Part shown: positions 319-46,275 of the stretch, piece by piece | Position numbering within the stretch: the first letter of the stretch is position 1 | Layout: every line of letters begins with the position of its first letter | Virus record (IMG/VR): IMGVR_UViG_3300044841_000164 | Coordinates: 1-46,275 of that record | Length of the DNA stretch: 46,275 nt | Direction: 5' to 3' (one strand) | Origin: a virus | Program-made: the position numbers and the translations under genes | The notes under the pieces: model-generated | Seen by the model: only the letters and a program-made list of their open reading frames with translations | The model's database searches: none | What the model was told of the DNA's origin: nothing

Positions 319-391
<73 letters not shown>

Positions 392-24646: not shown

Positions 24647-24652
24647 TGAACT

Positions 24653-24686
24653 ACAGTGGGCAGTGGGCAGTGGGCAGTGGGCAGTC
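24653..24686. repeat. Heptanucleotide tandem repeat (CAGTGGG)n
   Basis: Four and a half copies of CAGTGGG directly upstream of the terminase large subunit start (24646), in the gap to the next gene. Confidence 0.85.
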
Positions 24687-24710
24687 GGAGAAACTCAGAG
24701 GCCAGTGAGC

Positions 24711-24738
24711 GCTGGGAGCGCGGGCGTCCCGCCCGCAA
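24711..24738. repeat. REP-like palindrome
   Basis: GGGAGCGCGGGCGTCCCGCCCGC contains a perfect GCGGGCG-TCC-CGCCCGC hairpin in the 24647-24778 gap. Confidence 0.6.
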
Positions 24739-24778
24739 TGAGCGGAGGCTCGGCGACGCGAACTTCTGCGGTTAGCGA

Positions 24779-25036
24779 TCATTTCTCCTCGGCGACCTCA
24801 GCGCGACGGCGGCCCTTATGGAAGAGTTCGTGGACTCGCGACGCCGAGAGACCAAACTCTCGCGCTACTTCCGCACGACGTTTACCTGATTTCACTGCGC
24901 TGTAAATCAAGTCGATTCTCCTTACACGAGCGCGGGCCTTGCTATGAGCAGCTTCCCTCTCAATAAAGCGTTTCTCGCGCGCTATCTCACTCGCGAGCAG
25001 TTGCTGTTCACTGAGTAGGATTTCTAGTCTTGTCAT
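24779..25036 (-). CDS. Small helix-turn-helix protein next to terminase
   Basis: This 85-aa protein has an N-terminal coiled coil (LLSEQQLLASEIAREKRFIE) followed by a sigma-70 region 4 or resolvase-type HTH (IDLIYSAVKSGKRRAEVARE, FGLSASRVHELF). It sits between the terminase subunits, 5 bp from the small subunit gene. It may bind the packaging site or act as a regulator; not resolved. Confidence 0.6.
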   Translation of the reverse strand: MTRLEILLSEQQLLASEIAREKRFIEREAAHSKARARVRRIDLIYSAVKSGKRRAEVAREFGLSASRVHELFHKGRRRAEVAEEK

Positions 25037-28114: not shown

Positions 28115-28422
28115 TTGCGCGCATCGTCGCCGGCGCCGTTGAGGGCCTCAATAGTTTCCGCCTGCGCGGGGGTCAGCGTGCCGAGCCGGCCGTTTCTGTC
28201 GTAACCCTTCAGCTCGCGATGCAGCGTGTGGCGCCGGTCAGTGTGGCGCAGGGGAATCAACTGCAGGTCGAGAATTCCCTCCGACGAATTCGTCAGATAT
28301 CGCAGCCAGAGAAAGCGCCAGCCGAGCGCGGCGCAGGCCTCGCGGACACATTCGCCAAGTTGCTCTTCCGTCATCTGCCTCGTGATAAGTGCTGAGTTCT
28401 GGGTGCGAAGTTCTGCGCTCAT
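28063..28422 (-). CDS. VRR-NUC family nuclease
   Basis: This 119-aa protein contains a compact VRR-NUC/Holliday-resolvase-like core: EEQLGECVREACAALGWRFL, then EGILDLQLI (catalytic Asp), HRELKGYDRNGRLG (Glu and Lys of the ExK motif), LTPAQAETIEALNGAG and a terminal KWAPEDWLSG. Such stand-alone VRR-NUC proteins are common near phage replication genes and cut branched or flap DNA. The ATG forms an ATGA overlap with the ThiF gene stop; M17 is an alternative start that would drop the repeat-derived N-terminus. Confidence 0.8.
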   Translation of the reverse strand: MSAELRTQNSALITRQMTEEQLGECVREACAALGWRFLWLRYLTNSSEGILDLQLIPLRHTDRRHTLHRELKGYDRNGRLGTLTPAQAETIEALNGAGDDARKWAPEDWLSGQIQEELK

Positions 28423-29369
28423 GCTGCCACCTCGTTGCGTTCGTAGCCGATGACGAATTCGACTGAGCGATCAATCTCGCGCGCAATCTCTTCCGGCGTG
28501 CAGTAGAAAGACTTCACGGTCACTGAGGCGAGGTTGGCCACCGACTGGTAAACCTTCAGGTCGTTAGTGACGAGCAGGCGCGTGAGCATGTTGTTGGCCA
28601 TCCAGGCGACGGCCGGATTGATGTTGAGCGATTGCAGGTTCGCAGCTTGCAGCTCCGCGCACGACATCTCGCGGTCTTGAACTTCATCGCGGCCGGGTAT
28701 CAGCAGACTCGGATACTGCAGCGCCGGCGAGGGCAGCGCCGCCACTTTGCCCGGGGCAACGAAGGCGCCCTCGCACTGGTCCACGTCGAGGGCCGAGCCC
28801 AGCATCACGCGGCCGGTATCTTTCAGATTGCCGCAGTCCAGCCACCAAACCCGCGGCGGTCCCATGCTCACCTCTTCCGGATTGTGCCCCAGGGTTTGGT
28901 TGAGGACCGACCGCGCCTTTGCATTGTCGACGCAGCCGATGATGACAATCAGATCGCTCGCGCCAAACATATGGCTCTCGTCAAACTCGCTCTGGAAGAC
29001 TGCGGTGTTGAGTCCCCAAGCTGGCCCATAGCGCTGCGCGAGGGCAATCGCTTTCGGTTGACCGATCTCCGCGTCGCAGAAATTCTGGCGCCCGATGTTT
29101 TTCTCTTCAACGACGTCCGGGTCGACGAGCGTGAGTTGCGCGGCCTTGCCGTTGTCGTGCATAACGCGCATCAGCCGGCCCAGGTGCGGCGCGACATAGC
29201 CGCCTATGCCGCCGCAGCCGGCCAGAATGAATTGCACGCTCGACCACTCCGGCACGACAACCGTGGCGGCGTTCATGAAGTCGAGATTCAGCGACGGCGG
29301 GTTAGGCCCGATTTCGGGTTTCGGTTTCGCAGCCTGGAATGGTGAATGCCGTTTGTTTTTTCTGCTCAT
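28419..29369 (-). CDS. PRTRC ThiF/E1-like protein
   Basis: This 316-aa protein is an E1-type adenylating enzyme of the ThiF superfamily: nucleotide-binding GCGGIGG at 51-57, LVDPDVVEEKNIGRQNF at 81-97 (metal/ATP Asp and Arg), EIGQPKAIALAQRYG at 101-115, and IIGCVDNAKAR at 143-153. SCAELQAANLQSLNINPAVA at 236-255 matches the PRTRC ThiF signature, with C237 as the likely thioester cysteine. It would adenylate the C-terminus of a ubiquitin-like partner. It is the last gene of the cassette, in the usual PRTRC order. Confidence 0.85.
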   Translation of the reverse strand: MSRKNKRHSPFQAAKPKPEIGPNPPSLNLDFMNAATVVVPEWSSVQFILAGCGGIGGYVAPHLGRLMRVMHDNGKAAQLTLVDPDVVEEKNIGRQNFCDAEIGQPKAIALAQRYGPAWGLNTAVFQSEFDESHMFGASDLIVIIGCVDNAKARSVLNQTLGHNPEEVSMGPPRVWWLDCGNLKDTGRVMLGSALDVDQCEGAFVAPGKVAALPSPALQYPSLLIPGRDEVQDREMSCAELQAANLQSLNINPAVAWMANNMLTRLLVTNDLKVYQSVANLASVTVKSFYCTPEEIAREIDRSVEFVIGYERNEVAA

Positions 29370-29399: not shown

Positions 29400-29813
29400 C
29401 TAGGGATGCCCACACGCACACTGACACCTGAGCGACGCGCATCTGCCGTGCTCGCTGTTACGACAAGCTGCGGTCACAAACGCTGCTTTCTTTTGGCCGC
29501 GCAATATTTCGCTCTCAGTGTGGATCACCGGCTCATCCTGACCGGGCCACTGAAGAACGTAGAGCGTCTCCCTATGCGGTTTGCGGATGAGGAGTGTTAG
29601 CGGTCGGCGCTGCTGCGGCTTGGCCTGATCTGCGATGGCGTATTCAACACAGCCGCCAACAGGAACTACAGCAGTACACATGACATTAAGTGGCGTTCTC
29701 GGGTCTGACTCGTGGGCTGCGACGATTATTTCTCCCGGTTGGAATAGAGCGTCGGAAGGCACTGGCGTTTCTCCAAAGCCGCCGTCTGTCACGATCAGGA
29801 TTGGTCTACGCAT
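29400..29813 (-). CDS. Cysteine-rich C-terminus hypothetical protein within PRTRC cassette
   Basis: This 137-aa protein has an N-terminal globular part (RRPILIVTDGGFGETPVPSD.. LYVLQWPGQDEPVIHTES). The end is a Cys/His cluster (CRNSEHGRCASLRCQCACGH) likely to bind zinc. It overlaps the JAMM gene by 8 bp and precedes ThiF, so it belongs to the cassette transcript, but it is not one of the named PRTRC families I recognise. Confidence 0.55.
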   Translation of the reverse strand: MRRPILIVTDGGFGETPVPSDALFQPGEIIVAAHESDPRTPLNVMCTAVVPVGGCVEYAIADQAKPQQRRPLTLLIRKPHRETLYVLQWPGQDEPVIHTESEILRGQKKAAFVTAACRNSEHGRCASLRCQCACGHP

Positions 29814-30474
29814 TTCTGTCTCCCTTCCACGTAACGCAGTCCGTCACCCCTTCGGGCATTTCGAAAAACTCGCTTGCCGGGTATTCGTAGAAGTGGCCAA
29901 ACAACCCGACGCGCACGCGGATCGACGGGTTGGTAAAAATATTGCCGATGACACCGTAGAGCCGAAAGCTCATCGTGCCTTCGTCAGCGTCGTCAGTCGC
30001 GCTGAACACCGGATCCATTTCGTGGTGACTGTGCACTTCGATCACGGCGCGCTCTTCAAGACTGTTGGCGCCCTTCAGAGTCGGATCGACGTGTTCGGCG
30101 GTTGCGGTCTGTTCCGGAAAAATCAAGTGCCAGCCCGCGCGAGACAAAATAGTCCCGACGTTTGGCTTCTCACTGCTCAGGTAGAACAACGTCTCGCGCG
30201 GCTCCTTCTTCGCTATCGTCTGCGAAACATGGAATATCAGCGCCAGCATTTGCGCCGGCACTTTCGGATATCCCCACTGCACGTAGGGCTCGACGCTACG
30301 CAGCCCGCGCACTCGCGCGTCAGCGATCGGGATGCAGGCCTCGATGCCAGGGCGCCGGCCGCGCGCGTAGATGCCGCCGGCGCCGACGACATAGTCGAGC
30401 AGCAGCGTCTCGTCGACCGGTGGAAGCGGCGCGCCGCGAAGGGCAAGATGGTGATCGATAAGCCGCACGCTCAT
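29806..30474 (-). CDS. PRTRC system protein A-like JAMM metallopeptidase
   Basis: This 222-aa protein contains HSHHEMDPVFSATDDADE at 148-165, an exact JAMM motif HxH-x7-SxxD (H148, H150, S158, D161) of the Mov34/JAB deubiquitinase superfamily. Upstream ETLFYLSSEKP and downstream MSFRLYGVIGNI fit the core strands. In PRTRC cassettes protein A is the JAB peptidase, expected to cleave the Ub-like partner or remove it from targets. ATG forms an ATGA overlap with the preceding HTH gene. Confidence 0.85.
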   Translation of the reverse strand: MSVRLIDHHLALRGAPLPPVDETLLLDYVVGAGGIYARGRRPGIEACIPIADARVRGLRSVEPYVQWGYPKVPAQMLALIFHVSQTIAKKEPRETLFYLSSEKPNVGTILSRAGWHLIFPEQTATAEHVDPTLKGANSLEERAVIEVHSHHEMDPVFSATDDADEGTMSFRLYGVIGNIFTNPSIRVRVGLFGHFYEYPASEFFEMPEGVTDCVTWKGDRNA

Positions 30475-30707
30475 GCGTTTAATAACTCCTTGACGTCATC
30501 GCGCCGCGAGAGTGAACGTCGTAGCTTTCTTAAAGCGTTCTGTTCGATCAACCAGATGTTGGTGCGTGAGCAGCCGCAGACGAATGCGATCTCTACCAGC
30601 GTCCACCTTTTCAGCGGAGGCGTTGTCGCGCACAGCAAGAGTAAGCCGGCATCAATTCCGCCGTCCGGGTACTGCTGACTGCTAGGCGCTGACTGCTGGT
30701 TACTCAC
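30471..30707 (-). CDS. Sigma-70 region 4-like HTH protein
   Basis: This 78-aa protein starts at the GTG at 30707, which overlaps the TGA of the E2-like gene (GTGA). An in-frame ATG further upstream lies deep in that gene. The core RWTLVEIAFVCGCSRTNIWL, IEQNALRKLRRSL matches a sigma-factor region 4 helix-turn-helix. The N-terminus (NQQSAPSSQQ) is from repeat-like DNA. A small regulator embedded in the PRTRC operon; not a known PRTRC family. Confidence 0.65.
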   Translation of the reverse strand: MSNQQSAPSSQQYPDGGIDAGLLLLCATTPPLKRWTLVEIAFVCGCSRTNIWLIEQNALRKLRRSLSRRDDVKELLNA

Positions 30708-31543
30708 TCTGCCATCGCTCCCGTTTCCATGAACTCGCGCAACGCCTTGTCGAGAGTGACGCCGACGTTCGCAACTTGTCGCACGAGGTCCTCGATCGGG
30801 TACGCCCAATGCTCTCGCTGTTGATTGCTAACTACCGGATCCGCCAACTTGCGGAGCACGCCGCGCACGTCGTCGCCGGCGCGCTTCGACTTTCCGCTCG
30901 CGAGGTGATTATTGAACGTTGACTTAATGAAGAGGTCGAACGCGGTGAAGATCGAGCGGGCGTTGGCGCGCGGCGGCTTCACCATGCCCCAGCAAACTTT
31001 GCCGTCGGTGTAAACGTTTGGCAGCGGCGCGCGAAAGATTTCCTGGAAGGGCTCGAGCTTCGCGGTCTTGACCGCCCAGATGAAATACTGCGTGCCCATG
31101 CCGAAGAAGACGAGGCCGGGCAGCGGCACGCGCAACCGCTGGAGTTCAGATTCGACCGGCGACGGCTGACCGGCGACCGTGGCGTCACCCGTCTGCGGTC
31201 CTCGGTCTGCGGTCGACGCGCTCTCGCGCGTCACTTCCAGTTCCTGCACCGCCGGCGCGAAGAAGGCGACGGCCCACTCGCCATGCTTGCCATCGCCCCA
31301 ACGCGCGATCTCCGGACGCAGCCAGCCGCTGTCGATCGGGATTTTGGAGAAGGCCTCGCGCACGGCCGCGTCGGAAACATATCGCTCCGTCACGCCACCC
31401 TCGAGGTTTGTCATGCGGAAGAAAAACTGCCCGTCGCGAAACTCCAGCCGCGGGTTCTCGACTTCCGGGTGAATCGCAGTCGTGTGCGCCATGATACTGG
31501 TCAACTCTGACAGCACGTCGGTTTCGCCAATTTCGCTAAGCAT
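30704..31543 (-). CDS. PRTRC system protein B-like (prokaryotic E2 family D)
   Basis: In this 279-aa protein residues 135-260 match the PRTRC B / prokaryotic E2-D pattern: PLPGLVFFGMGTQYFIWAVK, then PLPNVYTDGKVCWGMVKPP with C184 at the position where family members keep a Cys after a DG.V element, and IFTAFDLFIKSTFNNHLASG. The N-terminal half is beta rich. Residues 103-130 (TRESASTADRGPQTGDATVA) are a repeat-derived linker. Expected to act as the E2-like conjugation factor with ThiF; catalytic competence is not shown. Confidence 0.8.
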   Translation of the reverse strand: MLSEIGETDVLSELTSIMAHTTAIHPEVENPRLEFRDGQFFFRMTNLEGGVTERYVSDAAVREAFSKIPIDSGWLRPEIARWGDGKHGEWAVAFFAPAVQELEVTRESASTADRGPQTGDATVAGQPSPVESELQRLRVPLPGLVFFGMGTQYFIWAVKTAKLEPFQEIFRAPLPNVYTDGKVCWGMVKPPRANARSIFTAFDLFIKSTFNNHLASGKSKRAGDDVRGVLRKLADPVVSNQQREHWAYPIEDLVRQVANVGVTLDKALREFMETGAMAE

Positions 31544-33236: not shown

Positions 33237-35381
33237 TTACCGCTTCCTCGCTTTCGCCGTTTTCTTCGTGGTCGACTTCTTCTTCACCGCGCCTTTCTTT
33301 TTGGCGACAGGCCGCCTCGCGGCGGGCCGCGCTGGCGCGGGTTTCTTCTTCACGCCGGTCGCAGCAGCCGACGTCTTACTCACTGGCCCCTTCTCGCCCT
33401 TGAGCTGGCGCGTAATCATGGCCAGTACGCTCTCCGGAAATCGCGGCACGTCGTCAGACGAAATCATGCCGCGCTCGGCGTCTTCGGGCTTGCCTGCTTT
33501 AACCGACACGCTCGCGCCCGGGACTTTCGGAATCCACGTGAACGAGACTGTCAGCATCCGACCCTTGAGGATCTCTTCGATCTTCTGTTTGGGTTTCGCC
33601 GCCGGCGCACTCGCTGGTTCGACGGTCGACGGTCGACGGTCGACGGTCTCGGCTCCGCCGCTCGGTTGCGGCTTGTGGTCCAGAAGCGTGAACTTGCCGA
33701 TCTCCGGTTGTGCGATGGCGCCCTGACCAACGGCGTTTTGAATTGCTGGGTAGGAGAAGCCCATCTCCTCAAGCTGCATGCGCATCAGCACGCCACCGTG
33801 CCGATTCATTACCTGCACGATGTCCTCGGGCGACTGGCCCCAGTCCGGCCGAGCCTTTCCGTAGTCGGCGTCGGGGCTGTCGTCCCCCGGGACCGCGGGC
33901 GTCCCGCCCGCCCCCGGATCGGGCTCTAAAGAGCCGGAAGCAGGCGAGACGCCTGCGCTCCCAGCTTCGCGCGCCCCTTCCCCTTGACCCGTTCCCCTTT
34001 GGCCCTCTTCCCCCTCTTCCTCTCCTCGCTCCGGCAAGTCAACGCCCGCAATGTCGGCGAGCGTGGTCTGGCGAGACTCGGCCGCGGCGTCGGGTTCAGC
34101 ATCCTTCGTGCGCTCGCCTATGTGCGTGACGTCGCGCACGACGCCGTCAGCGCCCTTCCGCAGGGGTTGGGCACTTATAACGCTTTTGAGTTCCAGCTCC
34201 TGGCGAACGCCGCTGACGAAGGGCTGCGTCACGCCGGCATGCTTCGCGATGACGCTGTCCGCGAGTCCAGCCCACTCGCGATCGGTGAGCAGCGCGGTTA
34301 CCGCCAGGCGTTTATCGGCGTTGGTTCGCTGCAGCCCGTGCGTCTTGTTCTCGCCAGCGGCAAAGATGACCGCGTCGCGCCGGTTGCCCTCACGTACGGT
34401 TACCAGCAGCTCGCCGAGCTTAGGATCCGACGCGGCAGCGTGACGGTGAGCGCCGCCCGCGAGCCAATAAGCGTCTGCCTGGAAGTCGTAAAACACATCC
34501 GCCGGAGGAAACGCGGCGCCGTCCTGCATGGCCTCGCTAAACTCGGCGACCTGCAGCAGGTTGAGACCCTCGGCGCGCATCTCGAGCGCTACCTCGGGAT
34601 TGATCACCTCAACTGGGAGTGTCCGAGTGTGTTCGTCGAAGCCGACGGCCGGATCCGGACGAAGCTCTCGCGGGACGCGCGGCGCCTGGCTCACGGCCGC
34701 AGTCCGCGCTGCGGCCGGTGAGCGCTTCGCCTCTTCGATGGCAACGTTTGCGGCTGCTGCAGCTGTTACGGCGTGCTCTGCCTCCAGTTCACGCGCGCGT
34801 GCCAACGCGTCGGGCGCGTAGCGATAGGTTTGCGTTTGCAGACCGAGGTGTTCGCTTTTCGCGATGTAGGGCAACTTCGACTTCGGGTCCTTATCGAAGA
34901 CCAACTGCCAGCCGCTTGCGAGCATGTCTTCGGGTATCAGCGAGCCGTTCTCTGCGCGATTGACTTCGGCCTCGCGGGTGAATTCCTCAGCCTGAGCGAA
35001 GGCGTCCACGACTTCTCCGTGCCACTCTGTTTCAAGGTCCAGCGTTTCGTTTACGAGTTGCCAGACAGGCGCATCGGCGCCGTCCTCTTCGCTGCGCTCG
35101 ATTGTCCAGCCTGCGGCTGCTAAGTCGTCAGGTAGCGCAGGCGTTGTCTCTCCCGCGGCCTCCTCGCGCACTGCCGCCTCTTCGTCGAACTCCGTCTGCA
35201 AGTCCCGCGCGGCGGCGATCGCTTCTTCGGCGGCGGGGAATGGACCACAGTTCGCAAGCGCGATGTTATTTCCCGCCCTGAAGCGGGCCGTGTCGGTGAG
35301 AAATAGCTGCCAGCCCTTGTCGGCCAACTCAGGAGGCATTCCCGGAATGGGCGTGCCGTTAGTTTGCGTGCTCGTGCTCAT
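33237..35381 (-). CDS. PRTRC ParB-like protein, possibly fused to protein E
   Basis: About 714 aa. The ATG at 35381 is chosen for its GGAGAGGGG ribosome site. Residues 10-200 hold three degenerate 55-residue units (PPELADKGWQLF, PDDLAAAGWTIE, PEDMLASGWQLV). Residues 255-430 are the ParB nuclease-like region (VEVINPEVALEMRAEGLN.. DAYWLAGGAHRHAAA.. LADSVIAKHAGVTQPFVSGV) with an HTH. A repeat-derived linker follows (450-500), then at about 600-660 a segment (KGRMLTVSFTWIPKVPGAS) that recalls PRTRC protein E. The end is Lys/Ala rich, as in DNA-binding tails. Protein E fusion is inferred from place and pattern. Confidence 0.7.
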   Translation of the reverse strand: MSTSTQTNGTPIPGMPPELADKGWQLFLTDTARFRAGNNIALANCGPFPAAEEAIAAARDLQTEFDEEAAVREEAAGETTPALPDDLAAAGWTIERSEEDGADAPVWQLVNETLDLETEWHGEVVDAFAQAEEFTREAEVNRAENGSLIPEDMLASGWQLVFDKDPKSKLPYIAKSEHLGLQTQTYRYAPDALARARELEAEHAVTAAAAANVAIEEAKRSPAAARTAAVSQAPRVPRELRPDPAVGFDEHTRTLPVEVINPEVALEMRAEGLNLLQVAEFSEAMQDGAAFPPADVFYDFQADAYWLAGGAHRHAAASDPKLGELLVTVREGNRRDAVIFAAGENKTHGLQRTNADKRLAVTALLTDREWAGLADSVIAKHAGVTQPFVSGVRQELELKSVISAQPLRKGADGVVRDVTHIGERTKDAEPDAAAESRQTTLADIAGVDLPERGEEEGEEGQRGTGQGEGAREAGSAGVSPASGSLEPDPGAGGTPAVPGDDSPDADYGKARPDWGQSPEDIVQVMNRHGGVLMRMQLEEMGFSYPAIQNAVGQGAIAQPEIGKFTLLDHKPQPSGGAETVDRRPSTVEPASAPAAKPKQKIEEILKGRMLTVSFTWIPKVPGASVSVKAGKPEDAERGMISSDDVPRFPESVLAMITRQLKGEKGPVSKTSAAATGVKKKPAPARPAARRPVAKKKGAVKKKSTTKKTAKARKR
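33618..33648. repeat. Heptanucleotide tandem repeat (CGGTCGA)n
   Basis: Four copies within the ParB-like gene, read as ETVDRRPSTVE in a linker. Confidence 0.85.
33888..33965. repeat. Paired REP-like palindromes inside the ParB-like gene
   Basis: Two hairpins, GCGGGCG-TCC-CGCCCGC and GCAGGCG-AGA-CGCCTGC, in inverted arrangement about 45 bp apart. In frame they encode AGVSPASG and AGGTPAVPG. Confidence 0.75.
34174..34190. repeat. Dispersed palindrome, site 6
   Basis: CTTATAACGCTTTTGAG, one mismatch from sites 2 and 4, inside the ParB-like gene. Confidence 0.65.
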
Positions 35382-35649
35382 AAATTCCCCTCTCCAAGTT
35401 TCCAAACGTTTCTTCGTAACGCGAACTGCGCGCCGTGCAGGTTTCGCGGTGACTGGTGTGGAGCTCGAAACCGCGGGCGCGCGCCTGCTCCAGCATTTCC
35501 GGTTCGAGCACGATGTAAGTGCCGAGAATTGTGTCCAGATGGACGTTGCCCTGACTCGATGGCTTCGCGTCGATCGCTGTCCGCGTCCCCGGGTCGCTGT
35601 TCAACCTGGCCCAGACGATCGCCGCGTCACACTTTTTACACCGATTCAT
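35359..35649 (-). CDS. Small zinc-ribbon-like protein
   Basis: This 96-aa protein starts with NRCKKCDAAIVWARLNSDPG, a CxxC knuckle, and the middle has IDAKPSSQGNVHL and HTSHRETCTARSSRYEE that could give the remaining ligands. This style (CxxC, aa-ID-P-, HxxxC) is frequent in phage zinc-ribbon proteins. ATGA overlap with the replication gene stop. Confidence 0.6.
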   Translation of the reverse strand: MNRCKKCDAAIVWARLNSDPGTRTAIDAKPSSQGNVHLDTILGTYIVLEPEMLEQARARGFELHTSHRETCTARSSRYEETFGNLERGIYEHEHAN

Positions 35650-36572
35650 AGCGCCGCTCCCTGAGCGCTGCCGCGCTTGCGAAGCTCTTCCTCGTAGGCG
35701 CCGAGCAGCTGCTTAATGCCCAGCGGGGTTTTTTCCACGCGCTTGTTTTTGGCGTTCGTGTACCACCAGCCATCGAGAATGTTGCCCCACAGAATGAGGT
35801 CCTGGGCCGTCAGCCAGATGTCGTGACGAAACCCTTCGCTCGGCATCAGCTTGAAGCGATCGTAGTAAAGCGTTACCGCGGGTGAGTTGAGCGGGTCGTC
35901 GTGTTGGGAGGAGCAGAAGCGACAAAGGTGGGCGATTGTCTTTTCCGGGGTTTGAAAGTTTTCCACAGACTTGTGGTCGCGGTCGGTTTTTTCGACCGCG
36001 TTCTTAATCTGTCTTTCTCTTAGATCCCTTTCTTTAATAGATCTAAGGACAAGCGGTTTCGAAATTCGATTTCCGAATTCCGAAGGCCCGTTGGGAATTC
36101 GATTTCCGAATTCCGTTGACGAAATTCGGTTTTCGAATTCTGTTTCAGAATGCTCCGCGTTTTCCACAGACGTCGCCGGGGCTAACGGAATTCGGTTTTC
36201 GAATTCCGTTACGTCAAAAGGCAGCGTTGACTGGCGGCGTTTTTGGCCCAGCTTAGGCAATGGTTTGAGGTTGGCCCGGGGAACGGCCCGATAGCGAAAG
36301 GTCCGTTGCCTGCCATTCTGAATCGTGCGGCGCTCTACTACGGTCCGGTGGCAGATATTTAGGATTGCCGCCTGCGCCGCCTCCCGGGCAAAGCCGGTCA
36401 GGCCCATGAAGCGGTCGACCGACAGCTCTGCGTCCTGGCGGTTCCAGCCGACCGTCTCGCGAATCACCGCGCAAACGATTTTCCACTCCGCGCAGCTCAC
36501 TCGCGGCATCACGTGATCGAAAAAATAGTTTTCCACCATTGTGTAACCGGCCTTAAACGTTTGTTGACTCAC
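35646..36572 (-). CDS. Replication initiator (lambda O-like)
   Basis: In this 308-aa protein residues 1-90 form a winged-helix domain typical of phage replication protein O/DnaD-type initiators (YTMVENYFFDHVMPRVSCAE, WKIVCAVIRETVGWNR, LTGFAREAAQAAILNICHR). Residues 120-175 are low complexity and are encoded by four DNA iterons (EFENRI, EFENRI, EFGNRI, EFGNRI), as in lambda where the origin lies inside gene O. The C-terminus has a small domain (EGFRHDIWLTAQDLILWGNI) that may contact the helicase. It would bind its own gene to start replication. Confidence 0.85.
   Translation of the reverse strand: MSQQTFKAGYTMVENYFFDHVMPRVSCAEWKIVCAVIRETVGWNRQDAELSVDRFMGLTGFAREAAQAAILNICHRTVVERRTIQNGRQRTFRYRAVPRANLKPLPKLGQKRRQSTLPFDVTEFENRIPLAPATSVENAEHSETEFENRISSTEFGNRIPNGPSEFGNRISKPLVLRSIKERDLRERQIKNAVEKTDRDHKSVENFQTPEKTIAHLCRFCSSQHDDPLNSPAVTLYYDRFKLMPSEGFRHDIWLTAQDLILWGNILDGWWYTNAKNKRVEKTPLGIKQLLGAYEEELRKRGSAQGAAL
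36000..36208. other. ori: Putative replication origin: four iterons plus AT-rich stretch
   Basis: Iterons at 36062-36082, 36095-36115, 36122-36142 and 36188-36208 share RAATTCGRTTTYCGAATTCYG, an imperfect palindrome. Start-to-start distances are 33, 27 and 66 bp, all codon multiples. The adjacent 36000-36060 segment is AT rich (TTCTTAATCTGTCTTTCTCT, TTCTTTAATAGATC). The layout copies lambdoid origins. Confidence 0.75.
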
Positions 36573-37003: not shown

Positions 37004-37209
37004 AACTTCTCCAGCGGCACGAAGTAGGTTGTGGCCTCGCGGTATTGGCCGGCCTCGCGGTCCAGCACGAAAAGTCGCAGGCCCCAGACAATCACTTCCG
37101 GCAGTTGCGTGACGTCGGGGGCCGGCGCGATTGCCGGGCCTGGGACAGTGGTCATGTACTCGCCAGCGCGCGTGTGCAGCTCGAACGTCAACATCAGCCC
37201 ACCTTCCAT
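37000..37209 (-). CDS. Small hypothetical protein
   Basis: This 69-aa protein (LTFELHTRAGEYMTTVPGPA, LPEVIVWGLRLFVLDREAGQ, REATTYFVPLEKF) is a compact beta-rich domain. It overlaps the upstream gene by 16 bp and the downstream one by TTGA, and M6 is an alternative start. No family recognised. Confidence 0.55.
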   Translation of the reverse strand: MEGGLMLTFELHTRAGEYMTTVPGPAIAPAPDVTQLPEVIVWGLRLFVLDREAGQYREATTYFVPLEKF

Positions 37210-37871
37210 TTCTTTTGAGAGGCGATTTCGCTGCCGGCTGTAGCGCGAACGTCACGTCGACGCGCTGGCAGCGCGCTGTCTGACTCCTGACTCCCGACTC
37301 CCGACTCCTGATTGTTGATGAAGTAGTGGCGGGTGTCGCCGACGATTCGCGACTTGATTTCACGCGTCCAAAGCAGCAGGGAGGCGATGGCCAGGCCAAC
37401 TTCGTCTTCCCCGAGCCTGGCTGTCTCGTCTGCCCCGAGGTTTGCCGCCCTGCGGATCTCCTTTTGAGTGCGCCAACCTTGGTGAATGGCCACTTTGACG
37501 CGCTCCACGTCCGAAAACCGACGCGGCGGCACTGGCGAGCGTTCGGTGCCCGGCTCATAAGTCGCGATGGAGTTCGTCGGCCGCCCATACCGCTTTCGTG
37601 TCGCCCGGTACTCTTTGCGAACCCGCCGGGCCACCGCCACTTTTTTCCGCAGGCACGCCATGCAGTAGAGATTGCGGCCGTCCTTACGCGCGCGGGCGAT
37701 TCCAAACTCCGAGAGCGGAAGACTGGTTGGCGCCGGCGCGTGTGTTGGGCAGAGTTTCGTAGCAGCGGGTTCGACCATTAGTAAACTCCAAAGCAGCCAG
37801 ACCGCCAGCAGCGTCGCCAGCAAGGCGATCAGCGCCGCGACAAGCAATTGATTTTTTGACGGTTGGGCCAT
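37194..37871 (-). CDS. Membrane-anchored zinc-knuckle protein with HTH-like domain
   Basis: This 225-aa protein uses the ATG at 37871; an in-frame GTG at 37961 would add 30 Arg-rich residues. Residues 5-32 are a strong membrane helix (LLVAALIALLATLLAVWLLW). Then CPTHAPAPTSLPLSEFGIAR, KDGRNLYCMACLRK matches the LSEF..KDG....C.xC pattern of zinc-knuckle/HNH-type N-termini. A winged-helix-like segment follows (VERVKVAIHQGWRTQKEIRR.. GDTRHYFINN). The end includes heptamer-encoded NQESGVGSQES. Combining a membrane anchor with DNA-binding elements is unusual. Confidence 0.6.
   Translation of the reverse strand: MAQPSKNQLLVAALIALLATLLAVWLLWSLLMVEPAATKLCPTHAPAPTSLPLSEFGIARARKDGRNLYCMACLRKKVAVARRVRKEYRATRKRYGRPTNSIATYEPGTERSPVPPRRFSDVERVKVAIHQGWRTQKEIRRAANLGADETARLGEDEVGLAIASLLLWTREIKSRIVGDTRHYFINNQESGVGSQESDSALPARRRDVRATAGSEIASQKKWKVG
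37280..37313. repeat. Heptanucleotide tandem repeat (GACTCCC/GACTCCT)n
   Basis: Four to five copies near the 3' end of the membrane zinc-knuckle gene. Confidence 0.85.
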
Positions 37872-37971
37872 AAGTGATTCGTTAGGTGACTCGTTTTTCG
37901 GGAAGCGCGCCGCCCGTTGGCCTCGCCCAAGACCGCGAGGCGGCGCGCTCACTCGCGACACCGACGACGGA

Positions 37972-38750: not shown

Positions 38751-39050
38751 CTATTGGCCCTCGTTAGCGATCGCGGAGTTAATGGCCATGCGCGCTTCAC
38801 TGAGTTTCCGCAGCGCGTGAGTCTTGCCCGGGCCGTCAGGAATGAGGTCGTAAGTGTTCTCGATGAGACCGACGAATGCGCGCGTCACGGCGCCGTACTT
38901 CGGCCGGGTGTCTTCGTTGGGAGGTTTATAGTGGAAGTGCTGGATTGCCCCAGCCTTAGTGCGGAAGTCAGCAGGCTTATCTGAAGCCTCAACCTTCGCT
39001 TGCTCCCTGATTTGTCTTCCGAACATTCCGTCCGTGCGGTGACTACTCAT
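38751..39050 (-). CDS. Acb2/Tad1 hairpin-like protein (candidate anti-CBASS sponge)
   Basis: In this 99-aa protein the C-terminal half (FHYKPPNEDTRPKYGAVTRA, FVGLIENTYDLIPDGPGKTH, ALRKLSEARMAINSAIANEG) follows the pattern of the Acb2/Tad1 hairpin family: a helix ending in LIPDGxxK, then A..KL.EA...N.AIA. Acb2 proteins are about 90-100 aa phage proteins that bind cyclic oligonucleotides and block CBASS or Thoeris signals. Here it is the second leftward early gene, as expected for an anti-defence factor. AGGAGAGGAAGGA precedes the ATG. The N-terminal 45 residues are extra or family-variable. Confidence 0.65.
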   Translation of the reverse strand: MSSHRTDGMFGRQIREQAKVEASDKPADFRTKAGAIQHFHYKPPNEDTRPKYGAVTRAFVGLIENTYDLIPDGPGKTHALRKLSEARMAINSAIANEGQ

Positions 39051-39240
39051 TCGGTCCTTCCTCTCCTAAAAAAATAAAACACTCGGCCGCATGCGTTGGG
39101 CCATTTCGGGTTTACACTGTCGGTCTCAACCTCTCTCCCTCAACGCTCTCCTGCTCCGGCTGAATGTCCCCAGGGATTCGGCAATGCGCGACAACCTAAC
39201 CCGACGCCCACCTGACAGGATCGGCTCGACGTGTGTCCGG

Positions 39241-39468
39241 CTACGCTGCCGCCTCGACCTGGGCCAACCTCTCAAGCATCAACTTCTTCCCGGCCTCCGC
39301 GTTCGAAGGCTCGAACTCCGCGCTACGCTTGTATGCAAGGAACCTTTCTTTATCCGGCCCTACAAGTTGCACTTGCACGATGACCGTATCCTTGTCGGTC
39401 GAAGCGGAGCCTGCCTGCTGCTGGGTTTTGTTACGCACATGGCCGCTTATAAGCATTCGTTTAGACAT
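39241..39468 (-). CDS. Small early protein, unknown
   Basis: This 75-aa protein uses the ATG at 39468, which has GGGAG upstream; earlier codons would run through the promoter. The sequence (MSKRMLISGHVRNKTQQQ, TVIVQVQLVGPDKERFLAYK) suggests a small beta-rich or ribbon-helix protein. It is the first gene left of the repressor promoter, the place of Cro-like or other immediate-early genes. No family recognised. A 190-bp gap (39051-39240) follows, in which I see no gene. Confidence 0.55.
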   Translation of the reverse strand: MSKRMLISGHVRNKTQQQAGSASTDKDTVIVQVQLVGPDKERFLAYKRSAEFEPSNAEAGKKLMLERLAQVEAAA

Positions 39469-39598: not shown

Positions 39599-40036
39599 AT
39601 GACTATGCTAGTCTCCGATTATGTTAGCGTTCTTCTTGTGGATAGTAAGGTCTCCCTGGGTGGGTATGTTCGCGCGGCGCGCAACGCGGCCCGTGTCTCG
39701 GCGAAGGAGGTCGCCAGGCGGAGCGGCGGCCAGATTTCAGAGGCCTACGTTTGGCGCATCGAGAACGGTCTCAGTAAAAACCCGACTCCTAAAATGCTGC
39801 GCGCTTTAGCCAGGGGTCTGCAAGTGTCAGAAGAAGAGGTGTTCATAATCGCCCGGGGCAAGTCGCTTCAGGAGCCCTCAGCAGTTGAAAGCCAGCTACT
39901 GACTTTTTTCCGCCAGTTGCCCCTCGAGCGTCAGGAAGACGTGATGCGTTTCGTGCGCGGATTGCACCAGGCGCACGCCATCAAAGAGGTGGTCCATGAG
40001 AAGAAAAAGCCACTTAAGATGCGGCGCGTTAGCTAG
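39599..40036 (+). CDS. XRE-family repressor (CI-like)
   Basis: This 145-aa protein has an XRE helix-turn-helix in residues 20-80 (GGYVRAARNAARVSAKEVAR, RSGGQISEAYVWRIENGLSK, TPKMLRALARGLQVSEEEVF). The C-terminal part is short and helical (LLTFFRQLPLERQEDVMRFV), without a LexA/CI autoprotease or ImmA peptidase motif. It is divergent from the leftward early genes, so it is the likely immunity repressor. How induction occurs without autoproteolysis is unclear; an antirepressor is possible. ATG at 39599 or 39605. Confidence 0.75.
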   Translation: MTMLVSDYVSVLLVDSKVSLGGYVRAARNAARVSAKEVARRSGGQISEAYVWRIENGLSKNPTPKMLRALARGLQVSEEEVFIIARGKSLQEPSAVESQLLTFFRQLPLERQEDVMRFVRGLHQAHAIKEVVHEKKKPLKMRRVS

Positions 40037-41059: not shown

Positions 41060-42313
41060 GTGCCCCGAGGATCCAACGACGGTACTATCCGCCACGTCGA
41101 GGCCGTGACCGGTGAAGACGGCGACGTCATTACGCGCGAGCATTGGATCGTGCGTAAGCGGTATACCGACCTGAAGGGCCGACCGCTCGAGAAGAAGCGC
41201 ATCGGCTATTCAGCTACCGCCGCGCTACGACTCAAACGAAAAATCGAACGCGAGATCGAGGACGAACTTGCCGGTCTTCCCAAACCGAACCGCACCCGCA
41301 CTGTCTCCGACGTTATCGCCCACTGCAAGCTCCACCAGTTCAAACCCGCCGTGTACGCCGGCGGAGTGAAGATTGCCGGGCAACGGACCTGGCGCGCGAC
41401 CTGGAACGCGCTGAAGCCGGTGGAAAAACACTTCGGGAAGATGTCGATCGTGGAAGTCACGCACGAAGACCTCGTCGACTACAAGGAGGCGCGGTTGCAA
41501 ACACCGGTAGTCATCAAGCGGGTTCGCTACGACGTCAGGGACGGGAAGAGGGTTCGCGTCGAATACGTCGACACTCGGGCGCGTTCGTCTACGTCGGTGC
41601 ACCGGGAGCTCGCCTGGGCGCGCGTTGTCTTTTCAGTGGCACTCAGTAAGAAGTGGATAACCGAGCACCCCTTTGATCACGGGCGGCCGCTCATCCAGGC
41701 GTCGATCGAAAACAAACATTTGCGGATCGTTTCTTATCCGGAGCAGAGTCGACTGTTCGGCGCCTTCGACTCTGAAGGCAAACGCGCGCACCTTTCCTTC
41801 GCTGCAACTTTTGCGCTCGAGACTGGCATGCGGAAGATTGAGCAGTTTACTAATCTCGAGCGCGAGCGTGACGTTGACATCGACGGCCGACTGTTGTGGG
41901 CCACCAGCTACAAGGGGAATAAGATGATTCGCCGGCCAGTGCCAATTACGGAAGCGCTGCTGCCGCAGCTCGTCGCGCACCTCGCCTCGCACGACGGTCC
42001 CCGGGTGTTTGAGATATTGGATCCGAAGAAAGCTTTCGCGCATTCATGCGAGGAAGCAGGCATCGTCGGTGTCACTTGGCACTCGCTGCGCCACACTGCA
42101 ATCACTCGGATGGTCCACGTCTACAAGATTCCGCCGCTCGACGTGATGAAGATTGTCGGACACTCGAGCTGGAAGACGTTCTTCGAAACTTACGTCAACA
42201 TCGACGAGGATATGGTGCGCTCCATCGGCGCCGCGATCGACGCCGCGCGGGCGGCCGCGGTGGCGCCGCCGCTGGCTGCGATCGATAATCTCATTACCGA
42301 GGTTCCACAATGA
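41060..42313 (+). CDS. int: Tyrosine recombinase integrase
   Basis: A 417-aa phage integrase with a GTG start. An N-terminal arm-binding region is followed by a SAM-like core-binding domain (about 80-200). The catalytic set is complete: R258 (ETGMRKIE), K285 (YKGNK), H341 and R344 (HSLRHT), H368 (GHSSW) and nucleophile Y378 (ETYVN). It lies 149 bp from attR and points toward it, so it is the enzyme that recombined the tRNA-Lys core. Right-end location places attP beside int, as usual. Confidence 0.95.
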   Translation: MPRGSNDGTIRHVEAVTGEDGDVITREHWIVRKRYTDLKGRPLEKKRIGYSATAALRLKRKIEREIEDELAGLPKPNRTRTVSDVIAHCKLHQFKPAVYAGGVKIAGQRTWRATWNALKPVEKHFGKMSIVEVTHEDLVDYKEARLQTPVVIKRVRYDVRDGKRVRVEYVDTRARSSTSVHRELAWARVVFSVALSKKWITEHPFDHGRPLIQASIENKHLRIVSYPEQSRLFGAFDSEGKRAHLSFAATFALETGMRKIEQFTNLERERDVDIDGRLLWATSYKGNKMIRRPVPITEALLPQLVAHLASHDGPRVFEILDPKKAFAHSCEEAGIVGVTWHSLRHTAITRMVHVYKIPPLDVMKIVGHSSWKTFFETYVNIDEDMVRSIGAAIDAARAAAVAPPLAAIDNLITEVPQ

Positions 42314-42462: not shown

Positions 42463-42507
42463 TGACTCTTAATCAGCGGGTCGCAGGTTCGAGCCCTGCT
42501 CGGCTCA
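42463..42507 (+). repeat. attR: attR core (displaced tRNA-Lys 3' part)
   Basis: 45 bp identical to 347-391, followed by CCA at 42508-42510. It is the original host 3' end of tRNA-Lys, cut from its 5' part by integration. Confidence 0.95.
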
Positions 42508-42743
42508 CCATTACTTCTCAATAACTTACGCCCCTCCGCCAAATCCCTAAACCCAGCCTCAGTGTGGCTATAGTGTGCCAACTTTTCACTTCCGCCCAAA
42601 GAAATTGTAAACTAAGTAATTACCCACACTTCGACATTTATAGCAATCCCTCACATAGAAGCCATCAAAATCGGAGTACACCTTTAACCCCCAATTCAAC
42701 CATCGGCACATGACAACAATTCCAACTGTTTGAAGCAAAAAAA

Positions 42744-42790
42744 TGGTAGGCGCGTGGGGATTTGAATCCCAGAGAAGCATTCGCACCAGT
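42744..42790 (-). other. tRNA 3'-end remnant
   Basis: On the minus strand it reads GGGATTCAAATCCC followed by CACGCGCCTACCA: a degenerate T arm with an acceptor 3' strand and CCA. No matching 5' half is seen, so it is probably a leftover of an older integration or decay. Confidence 0.45.
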
Positions 42791-43003
42791 TCTATCCTAC
42801 GCAAAAAACCAATAAAACAATGGGTCGCGGTCGGAAAAGATGCGTTTATGTGCCTTATGCGACAGAGGTTTCCCGATGAATCTTGGCAAAATCTCGGCAA
42901 AATTCCTGGAGGCAGGAAATCACTGAAAATCTAGCTCGCTTAACAATTCAATATCAGCATCCTTCAGGCAAACTGTTCAAAAACAGTGCCCGCTTGGGTC
43001 AGT

Positions 43004-43035
43004 AATAGGAAGGACGCTCGGAAGTCCTTCCTATT
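43004..43035. other. Perfect 12-bp stem hairpin
   Basis: AATAGGAAGGAC, 8-nt loop, GTCCTTCCTATT. No T tract on either side. Could be a transcription-end hairpin or a mobile element footprint. Confidence 0.5.
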
Positions 43036-43193
43036 CTGATATTTACCGACATTTAACAAAACGCGTTGACGTGTTATTGACGCCACTTTTTGGCCCCTCA
43101 ATCGCACCATCCTTTAAGTCTCCGTGAACTCCGAGCTGATTTGGAAGCACTGAGGCAGTCCTCATAGACTCGATTCCAATCAAACGAGAATCG

Positions 43194-43412
43194 GTGAACG
43201 CAGATTCATTGGAGTTGATAACACAAAACAATTTCAAGAATGCCTTACGCTGTGTGGAGGTGGGTTTAAGTCTCAGAGCAACAGCCGTGTCACAAATTGT
43301 CCCGGATCCACTTGTAACGGCCCAGAACGTCGATGATATTCCTGGGCAATCGTTGCACTACCAAAGTGTGCCGTTAGGCTATATCCTGTGGCGGTCCTTG
43401 AACGACTTTTGA
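43194..43412 (+). CDS. Small hypothetical ORF in host flank
   Basis: This 72-aa ORF starts at ATG with moderate codon use (SLELITQNNFKNALRCVEVG, HYQSVPLGYILWRSLNDF). There is no clear ribosome site and no family. It may be a fragment of the decayed gene that follows or spurious. Confidence 0.25.
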   Translation: MNADSLELITQNNFKNALRCVEVGLSLRATAVSQIVPDPLVTAQNVDDIPGQSLHYQSVPLGYILWRSLNDF

Positions 43413-43485
43413 GTGTTAGCGAGGTTCAATATGCCGTTGTGCCATGATCCACTGGTTTCATTAAAATTCATTTGGTTTCAATGCC

Positions 43486-44417
43486 TTGCGTGTTCCGCGA
43501 AGTGACTATGTACCCGGCTCGGTGCTAATCCGGAGCGGCGATGGTGTAGTTTCCCTATTTGGCACAATAAAAGACGCGTTTGATGTTTCAGACGGTGTTT
43601 CGCTCGAAGTGACGAAAGCTGTCGGCGCAAGAGTCCGACACACCCTTTGACTCCACCATTGCCTATATATCCAACGGAGGGTTTAACGCAGCGATCCGTC
43701 ATGAGGAGCGCGCGGTCGCCGCGTGTATCTTTGCGGGAGTACCCCTAATTGCGTTCCGCGCTTGCCGCCTATTAGCCTCACGCATAGACCTCCGAACCGG
43801 GTTACCCGTATGTGATGAGGCTCAGCGCTTAGTAGTCTATCCGGAACCTCTTTCACTTGAACTTGAATGGCACAATCTAAAGGATTTTGCTCAACAAGCG
43901 AGGGATGACCTGTTCACCTTCGAGGAGACTGCGCCAACCGAAAATAATGAGCTTGCGACATTCCTTTTCGACATCTCCATGCGCTATGTTGCGATGCATG
44001 AGGCCATGCTTTGTTTTGGGACACGCAAGGTACTGTCAGCGGACGCTTGGCCTTGACGCCTTCACAGATGTTTCTGATGAGCGCAGAGAGTTGGATCCAG
44101 TTGTCAGTCAAACCTTAGAATTCATCGCTGATCGTCACACAATATCAGGGATCATGACGGACCTAGCCGAGGGACGGTTGTTTCATGAGTGGTGTATTAA
44201 TGCTCCTAGCGAAATTGAGCCTGAACCTGAGGTCTGGCGCCGCCGAGTAGCCATTTCCGCGTTGGCACTCATGTCAAAACTATGGAAGACGACTAGTTCC
44301 CAAGGCTTTGCCGATTTTTCACTTGCGTACCCGCATCCGTACGAGCGCATGGCTTGGATGATCTGCGGTCTCCATGAAATGTCAAAGGAACAGGCACGAT
44401 CGGACATAGATCGTTGA
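43486..44417 (+). pseudogene. Decayed host gene with several frameshifts
   Basis: Protein-like sequence is spread over successive frames. From about 43486 to 43650 it reads VPRSDYVPGSVLIRSGDGVV.. SDGVSLEVTKAV. From 43649 to 44056 it reads DSTIAYISNGGFNAAIRHEE.. VVYPEPLSLELEWHNLKDFA.. SMRYVAMHEAM. From about 44010 to 44417 it reads GHARYCQRTLGLDAFTDVSD.. HTISGIMTDLAEGRLFHEW.. PHPYERMAWMICGLHEMSK. Joining them gives one roughly 300-residue protein. At the last join HEAM is followed by a frame change and GHARYC, suggesting an original HExxH-like metal site. Inactive in this genome unless these are sequencing errors. Confidence 0.55.
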
Positions 44418-44918
44418 TTTGCTCTTAACCTCGCTACGTTGGAGCGCAACTTTACATCACCGGTTTCGTTCACTCCACTGATTCAAAGCGATCTGCTCAC
44501 TCTTAATGAGGGCGGAATCTCTCAGCTCAATCGAAGCTACGCGGTGGTTAGAGCAAAGGCCATTGATCTGCAAAAGAGCATATACAAAAACTACGGACCA
44601 TTCTATCCGGGAGTGTGACGCCAATGGCCATCAGGAAGCAGTCTTGAATCCTAATGATGGACGATGTTCACGTAGACTAGGTCGACGACCGCGTGGTCTG
44701 TGTAATTCTCTCGAAGACGAAGAGCGGCGCATGCGCAACCCAGAGGTCGCGGGTTCGAATCCCAGCTGCTCCAGCAATAACACTCCATATCGACATGGTT
44801 TATTGCACGGCTTCGTTCTCATCGGGAAAAATAAATTAGCAAAATCCCCGTCTCTTTTCGAAGGTAACACAGGTGAGCGTTTACAATCTGGGATGAATCA
44901 AACGGCAGGAGCCTTGCT
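44418..44918. other. Host gap with a second tRNA 3' remnant
   Basis: No convincing gene. At 44737-44774 the sequence AACCCAGAGGTCGCGGGTTCG.. followed by AATCCCAGCTGCTCCA looks like the variable region, T arm and acceptor 3' strand of a tRNA. Its 5' part is not recognisable. Confidence 0.45.
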
Positions 44919-46131
44919 ATGAGCTATAGATCAATTTTTCGACTAGCTGCCTTACTCGGAATCGCAGTCTTTTTCTTAATGTCCCAATCCTCCTTTGCGC
45001 GCAGGATGCCGACGCGATTGGACACCGCGGACGCGCCTCGCCCGATGGATCGAAATGGACAAGAAGTGCGGGTCGTTCATCAAGATGACATTGTCGAACG
45101 GAACCTATCGGGAGATTCGGTTCAGACTTTTCATTTTGAAATTACTTCTCGTCAGTATCTGGATTTCGTCATAGCGCAACAAGGAATCGACGTAGTGGTA
45201 ACACTCTTTTGGCCCAATGGTGACAGGCTGGCTGAAGTTAACGACACAGCAGGGACCTCAGGTACCGAGGAGATCTTTGGCATAGTTGAAACGCCCGGGA
45301 CTTACCGAGTGGAGGTGAAAGCATTCAAAAAGGATGCGACGTCTGGCCGGTTTGAATTGAAGGTTATAGCCCTTAGACCGCCCACCGAACAAGACCTAAA
45401 GCGCTCGCTGGCTCGAGTAGCGGCGGCACAGGGAGATCAGCTAAGTAACCAGGGAACTACTCAGTCGCGTCAACAAGCCGTCGAGAAGTACGTTGAGGCG
45501 GCTCGACTCTGGCGGGAGGGTGCCGACCTGACCAAAACAGCGGTAACACTGCGAAAACTCGGCCTTGTTTATCAAGCCCTGGGCGACGGTCCTAAAGCCA
45601 TTGAATACCACATACAATCGTTGACACTTTGGCGAACCGTGCATGACTCAGTTGCCGAAGCTATGACCCTGGAAAGCATCGCACTCACGTACAACTCCCT
45701 TAATAACACATCGATGGCGCTTGACTACTACAAGCAGGCTGTTGCAGTACGCAAACGTGATAACGACATCTCAGGTCAAGCTCAAGGACTTTCCAGGATC
45801 GCCGAGATACAGAGTATTTCCGGCGACCCGCTGAATGCGATAGCCACCTATAAACTGGAACTTCCTCTTCTTCGTGTTGCGAAGGACCAATTTGGGGAAG
45901 CGTATACCCTCAATGACATCGGCGCTGTGTATTCGCGTTTGTCTAAATATGAGAAAGCTATTGAAAACTACCAGGAGGCGCTGCGTATTTCGCGAGTCAT
46001 CGGCAAGCGCAGACTTGAAGCCGCTGCGCTCACCAACATCGGCACAGCTTTCGACTCACTCGGCGACCCAAAGAAAGCCCTGCAGAATTTCAATGAAGCT
46101 CTTTCGCTCTCCCGTGCTGAGTCAGATCCTA
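44919..46131 (+). pseudogene. Secreted TPR protein (CHAT-type N-terminus), interrupted by IS630 end
   Basis: ATG at 44919 has AGGAG 7 nt upstream. The protein has an N-terminal signal or anchor (LAALLGIAVFFLMSQSSFA). Residues 45-150 form a pre-peptidase-like beta domain (VERNLSGDSVQTFHFEITSR.. QGIDVVVTLFWPNGDRLAEV.. GTYRVEVKAF). TPR repeats follow from about 180 (AARLWREGADLTKTAVTLRK, LGLVYQALGDGPKAIEYH and so on). This architecture usually continues into a CHAT peptidase domain. Here native sequence stops near 46131 in the middle of a TPR. The frame then runs into the IS630 transposase gene and ends at 46199, so the C-terminus is lost. Confidence 0.75.
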
Positions 46132-46275
46132 GTGTCCTGTCTCTAAAATTCGCTGACAAAACCTGGCCACGCTGTCGAGAATCTCGTCAGCGGTTTTAGT
46201 CCAAATGAACGGCTTTGGTTCTTGGTTATGATTGTCGATGTAGTGGCGGATGGTTGTTTCAAGATTACGCGTGCT
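46129..46275 (-). mobile_element. IS630-family transposase, C-terminal part (element extends beyond window)
   Basis: On the minus strand the frame reads ETTIRHYIDNHNQEPKPFIW, then TKTADEILDSVARFCQRILE and stops at TAG (46131-46129). The PFIWTKTADEIL motif is characteristic of IS630/Tc1-like transposase ends. The element edge is at or next to the TA at 46130-46131, which fits the TA target preference of this family. It interrupts the TPR gene. Confidence 0.85.

Follow-up and report, generated by a model that had tools for sequence, protein, structure and literature searches.

The closest described relatives of the protein analysed here are Acb2 and Tad1, nucleotide-signal sponges that share a hairpin domain in Pfam. 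Sponge proteins reveal which alarm molecules bacteria deploy against phages. According to its citation in PMC13232231, their diversity has been surveyed by Hadary et al. 2025. In Acb2 a short helix at the N-terminus precedes two long ones, and Tad1 carries an N-terminal antiparallel beta-sheet before its hairpin (PMC12043709). For T4 Acb2, Tyr8 is required for cyclic dinucleotide binding (PMC12657218, PMC12657230), the substitution T68M reduces binding (PMC12657230) and Phe82 stacks on the ligand (PMC12657218).

The window, that is, the whole stretch of DNA that was analysed, is a complete IMG/VR record of 46,275 bases that holds an integrated prophage. A 45-bp direct repeat at 347-391 and 42463-42507 places the integration in tRNA-Lys(CTT), leaving positions 1-346 and 42508-46275 as host DNA; a TPR/PPC-domain protein is encoded in the host flank at 44919-46199, and this TPR gene had no phage match. 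Portal, major head protein, terminase and tail genes lie on the minus strand between the att copies. The leftward early genes begin at about 39468, and a promoter-like site at 39569-39540 is recognised by consensus match only. The gene of interest (38751-39050) comes second among the leftward early genes and lies next to a divergent HTH repressor, in agreement with the initial annotation, which had placed it among the first leftward early genes beside the repressor. The features referred to in the text are as follows.

347..391, no strand: att repeat copy 1, inside tRNA-Lys 318-392 (45-bp exact direct repeat)
35646-36572: Phage_rep_O-like replication gene (Pfam, PHROG)
37194..37961, minus strand: Cys-rich early gene, with relatives downstream of the hairpin gene in phages L108 and L109
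38506..38745, minus strand: following leftward gene, Cys-rich product of 79 aa (unmatched in Pfam and PHROG)
38751..39050, minus strand: Acb2/Tad1-hairpin protein, 99 aa (PF24729, phrog_1454, clade-excluded profile, model, fold searches)
38751..38966, minus strand: conserved 71-residue core (residues 29-99) with short N-helix, Tyr41 and hairpin helices 49-69 and 74-95
38967..39050, minus strand: N-terminal extension private to this phage, residues 1-28 (modelled mostly with low confidence; lacking in the closest relatives)
39056..39067 (approximate), minus strand: ribosome-binding site AGGAGAGGAAGG, 5' of the ATG, read from the sequence
39241..39468, minus strand: first of the leftward early genes, product of about 75 aa, start inferred (no Pfam match)
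39599..40036, plus strand: divergent HTH repressor, start inferred (HTH_31, 3e-12; PHROG repressors)
41060..42313, plus strand: integrase (phrog_1, 4.8e-32)
42463..42507, no strand: att repeat copy 2, just past the integrase (45-bp exact direct repeat)

The stretch 38751-39050 is a real gene. The reading frame and both motifs quoted in the initial annotation are present on the minus strand, in a protein of 99 aa with LIPDGPGK at residues 69-76 and KLSEARMAINSAIA at residues 82-95. A strong ribosome-binding site, AGGAGAGGAAGG, immediately precedes the ATG, and Met9 is the sole alternative in-frame start ahead of the core. Residues 29-99 are gapless in four phages, the window phage and three relatives, and comparison of the protein with those relatives over this core gave pN values of 0.26-0.28 against pS values of 0.64-0.81, indicating purifying selection on the hairpin protein. 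Judged by eye, selection against change is strongest in the turn and the second helix; the ligand residues of the family sit in the turn and second helix.

Membership of the family was assessed with sequence profiles. In hmmscan the protein matched the Acb2/Tad1 hairpin domain PF24729 with E=9e-5 and 23 bits, under the curated cut-off of 27 bits; the relative from phage L111, 58% identical over the core, scored 28.1 bits against the same model, above that cut-off. A match to phrog_1454 was found in PHROG (E=1.2e-8). An independent control profile, built without the protein and its three closest relatives, gave the protein 43.6 bits (E=1.3e-9 for a million sequences) and the three relatives 40-48 bits, with a top score of 13.3 bits among 2000 shuffles and at most 6.1 bits for every other open frame of the window. 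Relatives were collected from IMG/VR, seeded by weak phage matches, to form alignment A3, in which 58 of the 59 members matched PF24729. Searched against solved structures, the A3 profile matched 'Acb2 homolog 43' (9ptq) with E=1e-7 and, after it, weakly, Tad1 with E=0.05 and T4 Vs.4, which is Acb2, with E=0.2; across the profile matches to Tad1 chains, E was 0.03-0.06. Scans with the single protein returned no relative in IMG/VR or GTDB genomes, and its kin were reached only via alignments and via relatives. PADLOC and NCBIfam gave no match for it. A hit to JukB in a single-sequence PDB search (E=1.6) was set aside as chance, and weak matches in AGM, Labrenzia and Erwinia phages were left out of the family.

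It is scarcely credible that the frame is not a gene or resembles the family only by chance. The low identity to characterised members and the sub-threshold Pfam score could be read that way, but the shuffle control and the excess of pS over pN refute it, and the intact gapless core in four phages and the strong ribosome-binding site speak against it as well.

A structure was predicted with AlphaFold2 from 56 aligned sequences. The model of the protein has helices at residues 9-22 (low confidence), 32-38, 49-69 and 74-95, with pLDDT 97-98 across residues 51-90, the hairpin. The predicted plan is thus a short helix followed by a helical hairpin, in which two antiparallel helices with a conserved turn follow the pattern F-x-Y-x-x-P, with F39, Y41 and P44 all in place. 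The L111 protein was modelled in the same shape (mean pLDDT 94.6), and the helix plan of Acb2 was found in both models, at 32-38, 49-69 and 74-95 in the prophage protein and at 4-11, 21-41 and 46-67 in that of L111.

When the model of the prophage protein was searched against the PDB with Foldseek, 9ptq had the highest probability (0.96) and was second by E-value, followed by T4 Vs.4; E-values in these searches are weak, which is usual for a fold as simple as a helical hairpin. The match to 9ptq extended over 57 columns at 1.1 Å, with a TM of 0.76 by target length and 19% identity. With the L111 model, T4 Vs.4 and Acb2 (8h2x) were among the weak matches, and 9ptq was absent among the 50 matches listed. 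Among the predicted viral structures of BFVD the top-ranked matches were nearly all annotated as 'Acb2/Tad1 hairpin domain-containing', and a protein of mycobacteriophage Phabba ranked first. By sequence profile and, for the model of the prophage protein, by fold, 'Acb2 homolog 43' is the best-supported solved match. The protein firmly belongs to the Acb2/Tad1 hairpin family, and the family and hairpin fold proposed in the initial annotation are thereby upheld by sequence profiles, the AlphaFold model and fold searches.

Within this family the closest known members differ from the protein in distinct ways. Acb2 homolog 43, which was solved with 3'cADPR, resembles it in being a short hairpin that lacks the T4 Acb2 insert. 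It keeps an Arg and a Thr in the turn and second helix that are replaced in the prophage protein and its closest relatives, at 19% identity by fold alignment, and itself lacks the Tyr, Trp and Asn. T4 Acb2 (Vs.4, 7uq2) and the Pseudomonas phage Acb2 (p26, 8h2j/8ixz) share the short N-terminal helix and hairpin, but their hairpin is longer and carries an insert. Mycobacteriophages Phabba and ScoobyDoobyDoo encode Acb2/Tad1-hairpin proteins (phrog_1454, phrog_31113) that resemble it in a PDG-x-x-K turn and in an Arg at the Thr position, and differ in C-terminal tails of about 70 residues and in having Thr and Leu where it has Ala89 and Asn96. To our knowledge, no functional test of these two hairpin proteins has been described.

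The hairpin at the C-terminus of Tad1 (7uav, 8kbb) belongs to the same Pfam domain, and the N-terminal beta-sheet of Tad1 contrasts with the all-helical prediction obtained here. That the protein is a Tad1 proper, an anti-Thoeris sponge, is very improbable: the common Pfam domain and the weak profile match to Tad1 chains are set against a model free of strands, in which the defining beta-sheet is missing, and against a 28-residue extension that is too short for such a sheet and of low confidence. Tad1 was also absent among the fold matches listed for both the prophage and the L111 models.

The extension was compared with the starts of the closest relatives, which are 71 aa long. Each of the three begins with Met or Val exactly at the position of Phe29, and in each a purine-rich stretch lies upstream of the start. 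The window gene lacks a start codon at Phe29, and its upstream ATG adds 28 residues, which are probably translated. The simplest reading is that an old start was lost and the upstream start took over. The initial annotation had described the N-terminus as longer than in known members, which holds against the closest relatives and fails against Tad1 chains of about 123-138 aa. Its suggestion of a new subtype on that ground falls away, since the 28 residues are confined to this phage, received low confidence in the model and stop at the start codon of the relatives, so they mark no subtype. A better basis for a subtype, as far as the sequences indicate, would be the conserved change of ligand positions common to four related phages. 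An ATG start in L014 was considered as a sign of a shared extension and rejected; it has no ribosome-binding site, and a GTG at 3998 was preferred. In L015 (3806-4282), L059 (2836-3195) and L079 (2836-3192), members of the family, the open frame appears to extend further at the N-terminus, as a possible fusion; the long frames of L015 were dismissed as evidence for a shared extension.

These four phages are the window phage and the IMG/VR phages L014 (identical to L108), L109 and L111; the protein of L110 is the same as that of L111. The three relatives are 56-58% identical to the prophage protein across 71 gapless residues. In the tree the four proteins form one clade with full support and a very long stem, the place of which within the family is unsure as the tree has few columns. 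Other genes are common to these phages and the window phage, varying by phage, among them terminase (48%), portal (51%), integrase (40%) and repressor (39%). In L108 and L109 the hairpin gene lies upstream of a Cys-rich gene related to that at 37194..37961 of the window (36-38% identity). The L111 gene is at 6016-6231, flanked by the genes for the small and the large terminase and outside any early block; this neighbourhood is an unexpected site for an anti-defence gene. A kin scan with the large terminase of the window found nothing. In the genome collection the sole good match to the family was a Rhizobiales contig, UCCA01000038.1 (L106). Its gene, at 6001-6216, and those of L016-L027 form a separate, well-supported clade with a PDGPDKT turn and an Arg at the Thr position, in which the Trp and the C-terminal Arg are retained.

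Ligand positions were read from the alignments. Tyr41 aligns with Tyr8 of T4 Acb2. The T4 residues K23, Thr68, W76 and Phe82 correspond to T56, Arg81, A89 and Ala95; position 56 aligns with Lys23 of T4 and Lys26 of PaP2, and position 74 with Arg67 of PaP2. We take Lys26 and Arg67 of PaP2 to be ligand contacts. All 57 common members have Arg at position 56 and Trp at position 89, and Arg is present at position 74 in 53 of them and at position 96 in 54. Throughout the four-phage clade these positions read R56T, R74P, W89A and R96N/H, and the clade has conserved basic residues of its own, K/R51, K76, R81 and K/R87. Apart from the Tyr, the ligand-site residues of Acb2 that were compared (T68 and F82 of T4, the Lys at T4 23 and PaP2 26, the Arg at PaP2 67) are not kept, R81, A95, T56 and P74 being found instead. 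The initial annotation had named missing ligand residues as a point that would tell against it, and here the outcome is divided: the tyrosine is kept, in its favour, and several basic and aromatic positions are lost.

The loss of several near-invariant ligand positions would fit a relative with the hairpin fold that has given up sequestering immune signals and serves the phage in another role, for example as a small regulator acting as an oligomer or as the partner of another phage protein. The location of the L111 gene between terminase genes and the Pfam score under the cut-off point the same way. This is possible but somewhat unlikely, given that purifying selection looks strongest by eye on the very turn and second helix that bear the ligand residues. 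Moreover, the structure of Acb2 homolog 43 was determined with 3'cADPR although its Tyr, Trp and Asn are missing, so losses of this kind are compatible with a sponge.

By the function of its family, the protein is likely to act as a nucleotide-signal sponge, and a sponge with a remodelled pocket is, in our judgement, the best reading and a fairly probable one. By analogy with its relatives, which are hexamers where solved, the helical-hairpin protein would form an oligomer that captures and retains an immune signal of nucleotide type; the effector of a host CBASS, Thoeris or similar system would thereby stay off during infection or induction. For this protein we infer the oligomer, the ligand binding and the anti-defence role alike. 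In the small and distinct clade the pocket appears to have been rebuilt: the stacking Tyr stays and the Arg/Arg/Trp/Arg positions are lost, with other conserved basic residues (51, 76, 81 and 87) present. As judged from sequence and predicted structure, the protein is a divergent variant, neither a Tad1, for want of the beta-sheet, nor a standard Acb2, its ligand positions being changed.

With these positions changed, it is uncertain that the protein has the usual specificity for cGAMP and cA3. A narrower version of the sponge reading, in which the protein binds 3'3'-cGAMP and cA3 and blocks CBASS as T4 Acb2 does, draws on the Tyr41 retained at T4 Tyr8, on the Acb2-like helix plan of the model and on conserved K76 and R81, which could replace the lost Arg and Lys. 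We nevertheless regard it as unlikely, as T4 K23, T68, W76 and F82 have become T56, R81, A89 and A95, and the Arg at position 74 (PaP2 R67) is Pro across the clade. The four-phage clade may instead be a functional variant, in which a pocket with Arg81, Lys76 and other basic residues sequesters a signal that known Acb2 and Tad1 bind poorly or not at all; this is a rather tentative proposal. Because the fold and general mechanism are already known, the interest of a sponge with a remodelled pocket rests on binding data. By retaining the sponge fold with most known ligand positions changed, the conserved clade offers a test case for the way in which the pocket determines specificity and may point to signals in poorly studied hosts.

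Elsewhere in the prophage a PRTRC-like cassette was observed at 28419-29369, 29806-30474, 30704-31543 and 33237-35405, all on the minus strand. It includes a ThiF/E1-like protein (TIGR03736, 8.5e-40), PRTRC_A (TIGR03735, 2.7e-10) and an E2-like PRTRC_B (PF14460, 1.1e-19; TIGR03737, 1.5e-13), and a large protein near these genes appears ParB-like by eye; the cassette constitutes a ubiquitin-type conjugation set on a temperate phage. Peptides of the AGVSPA...GGTPA type, at 33237-35405 and 24555-24905, resemble a repeat from Verrucomicrobiota and are a possible hint at the host.
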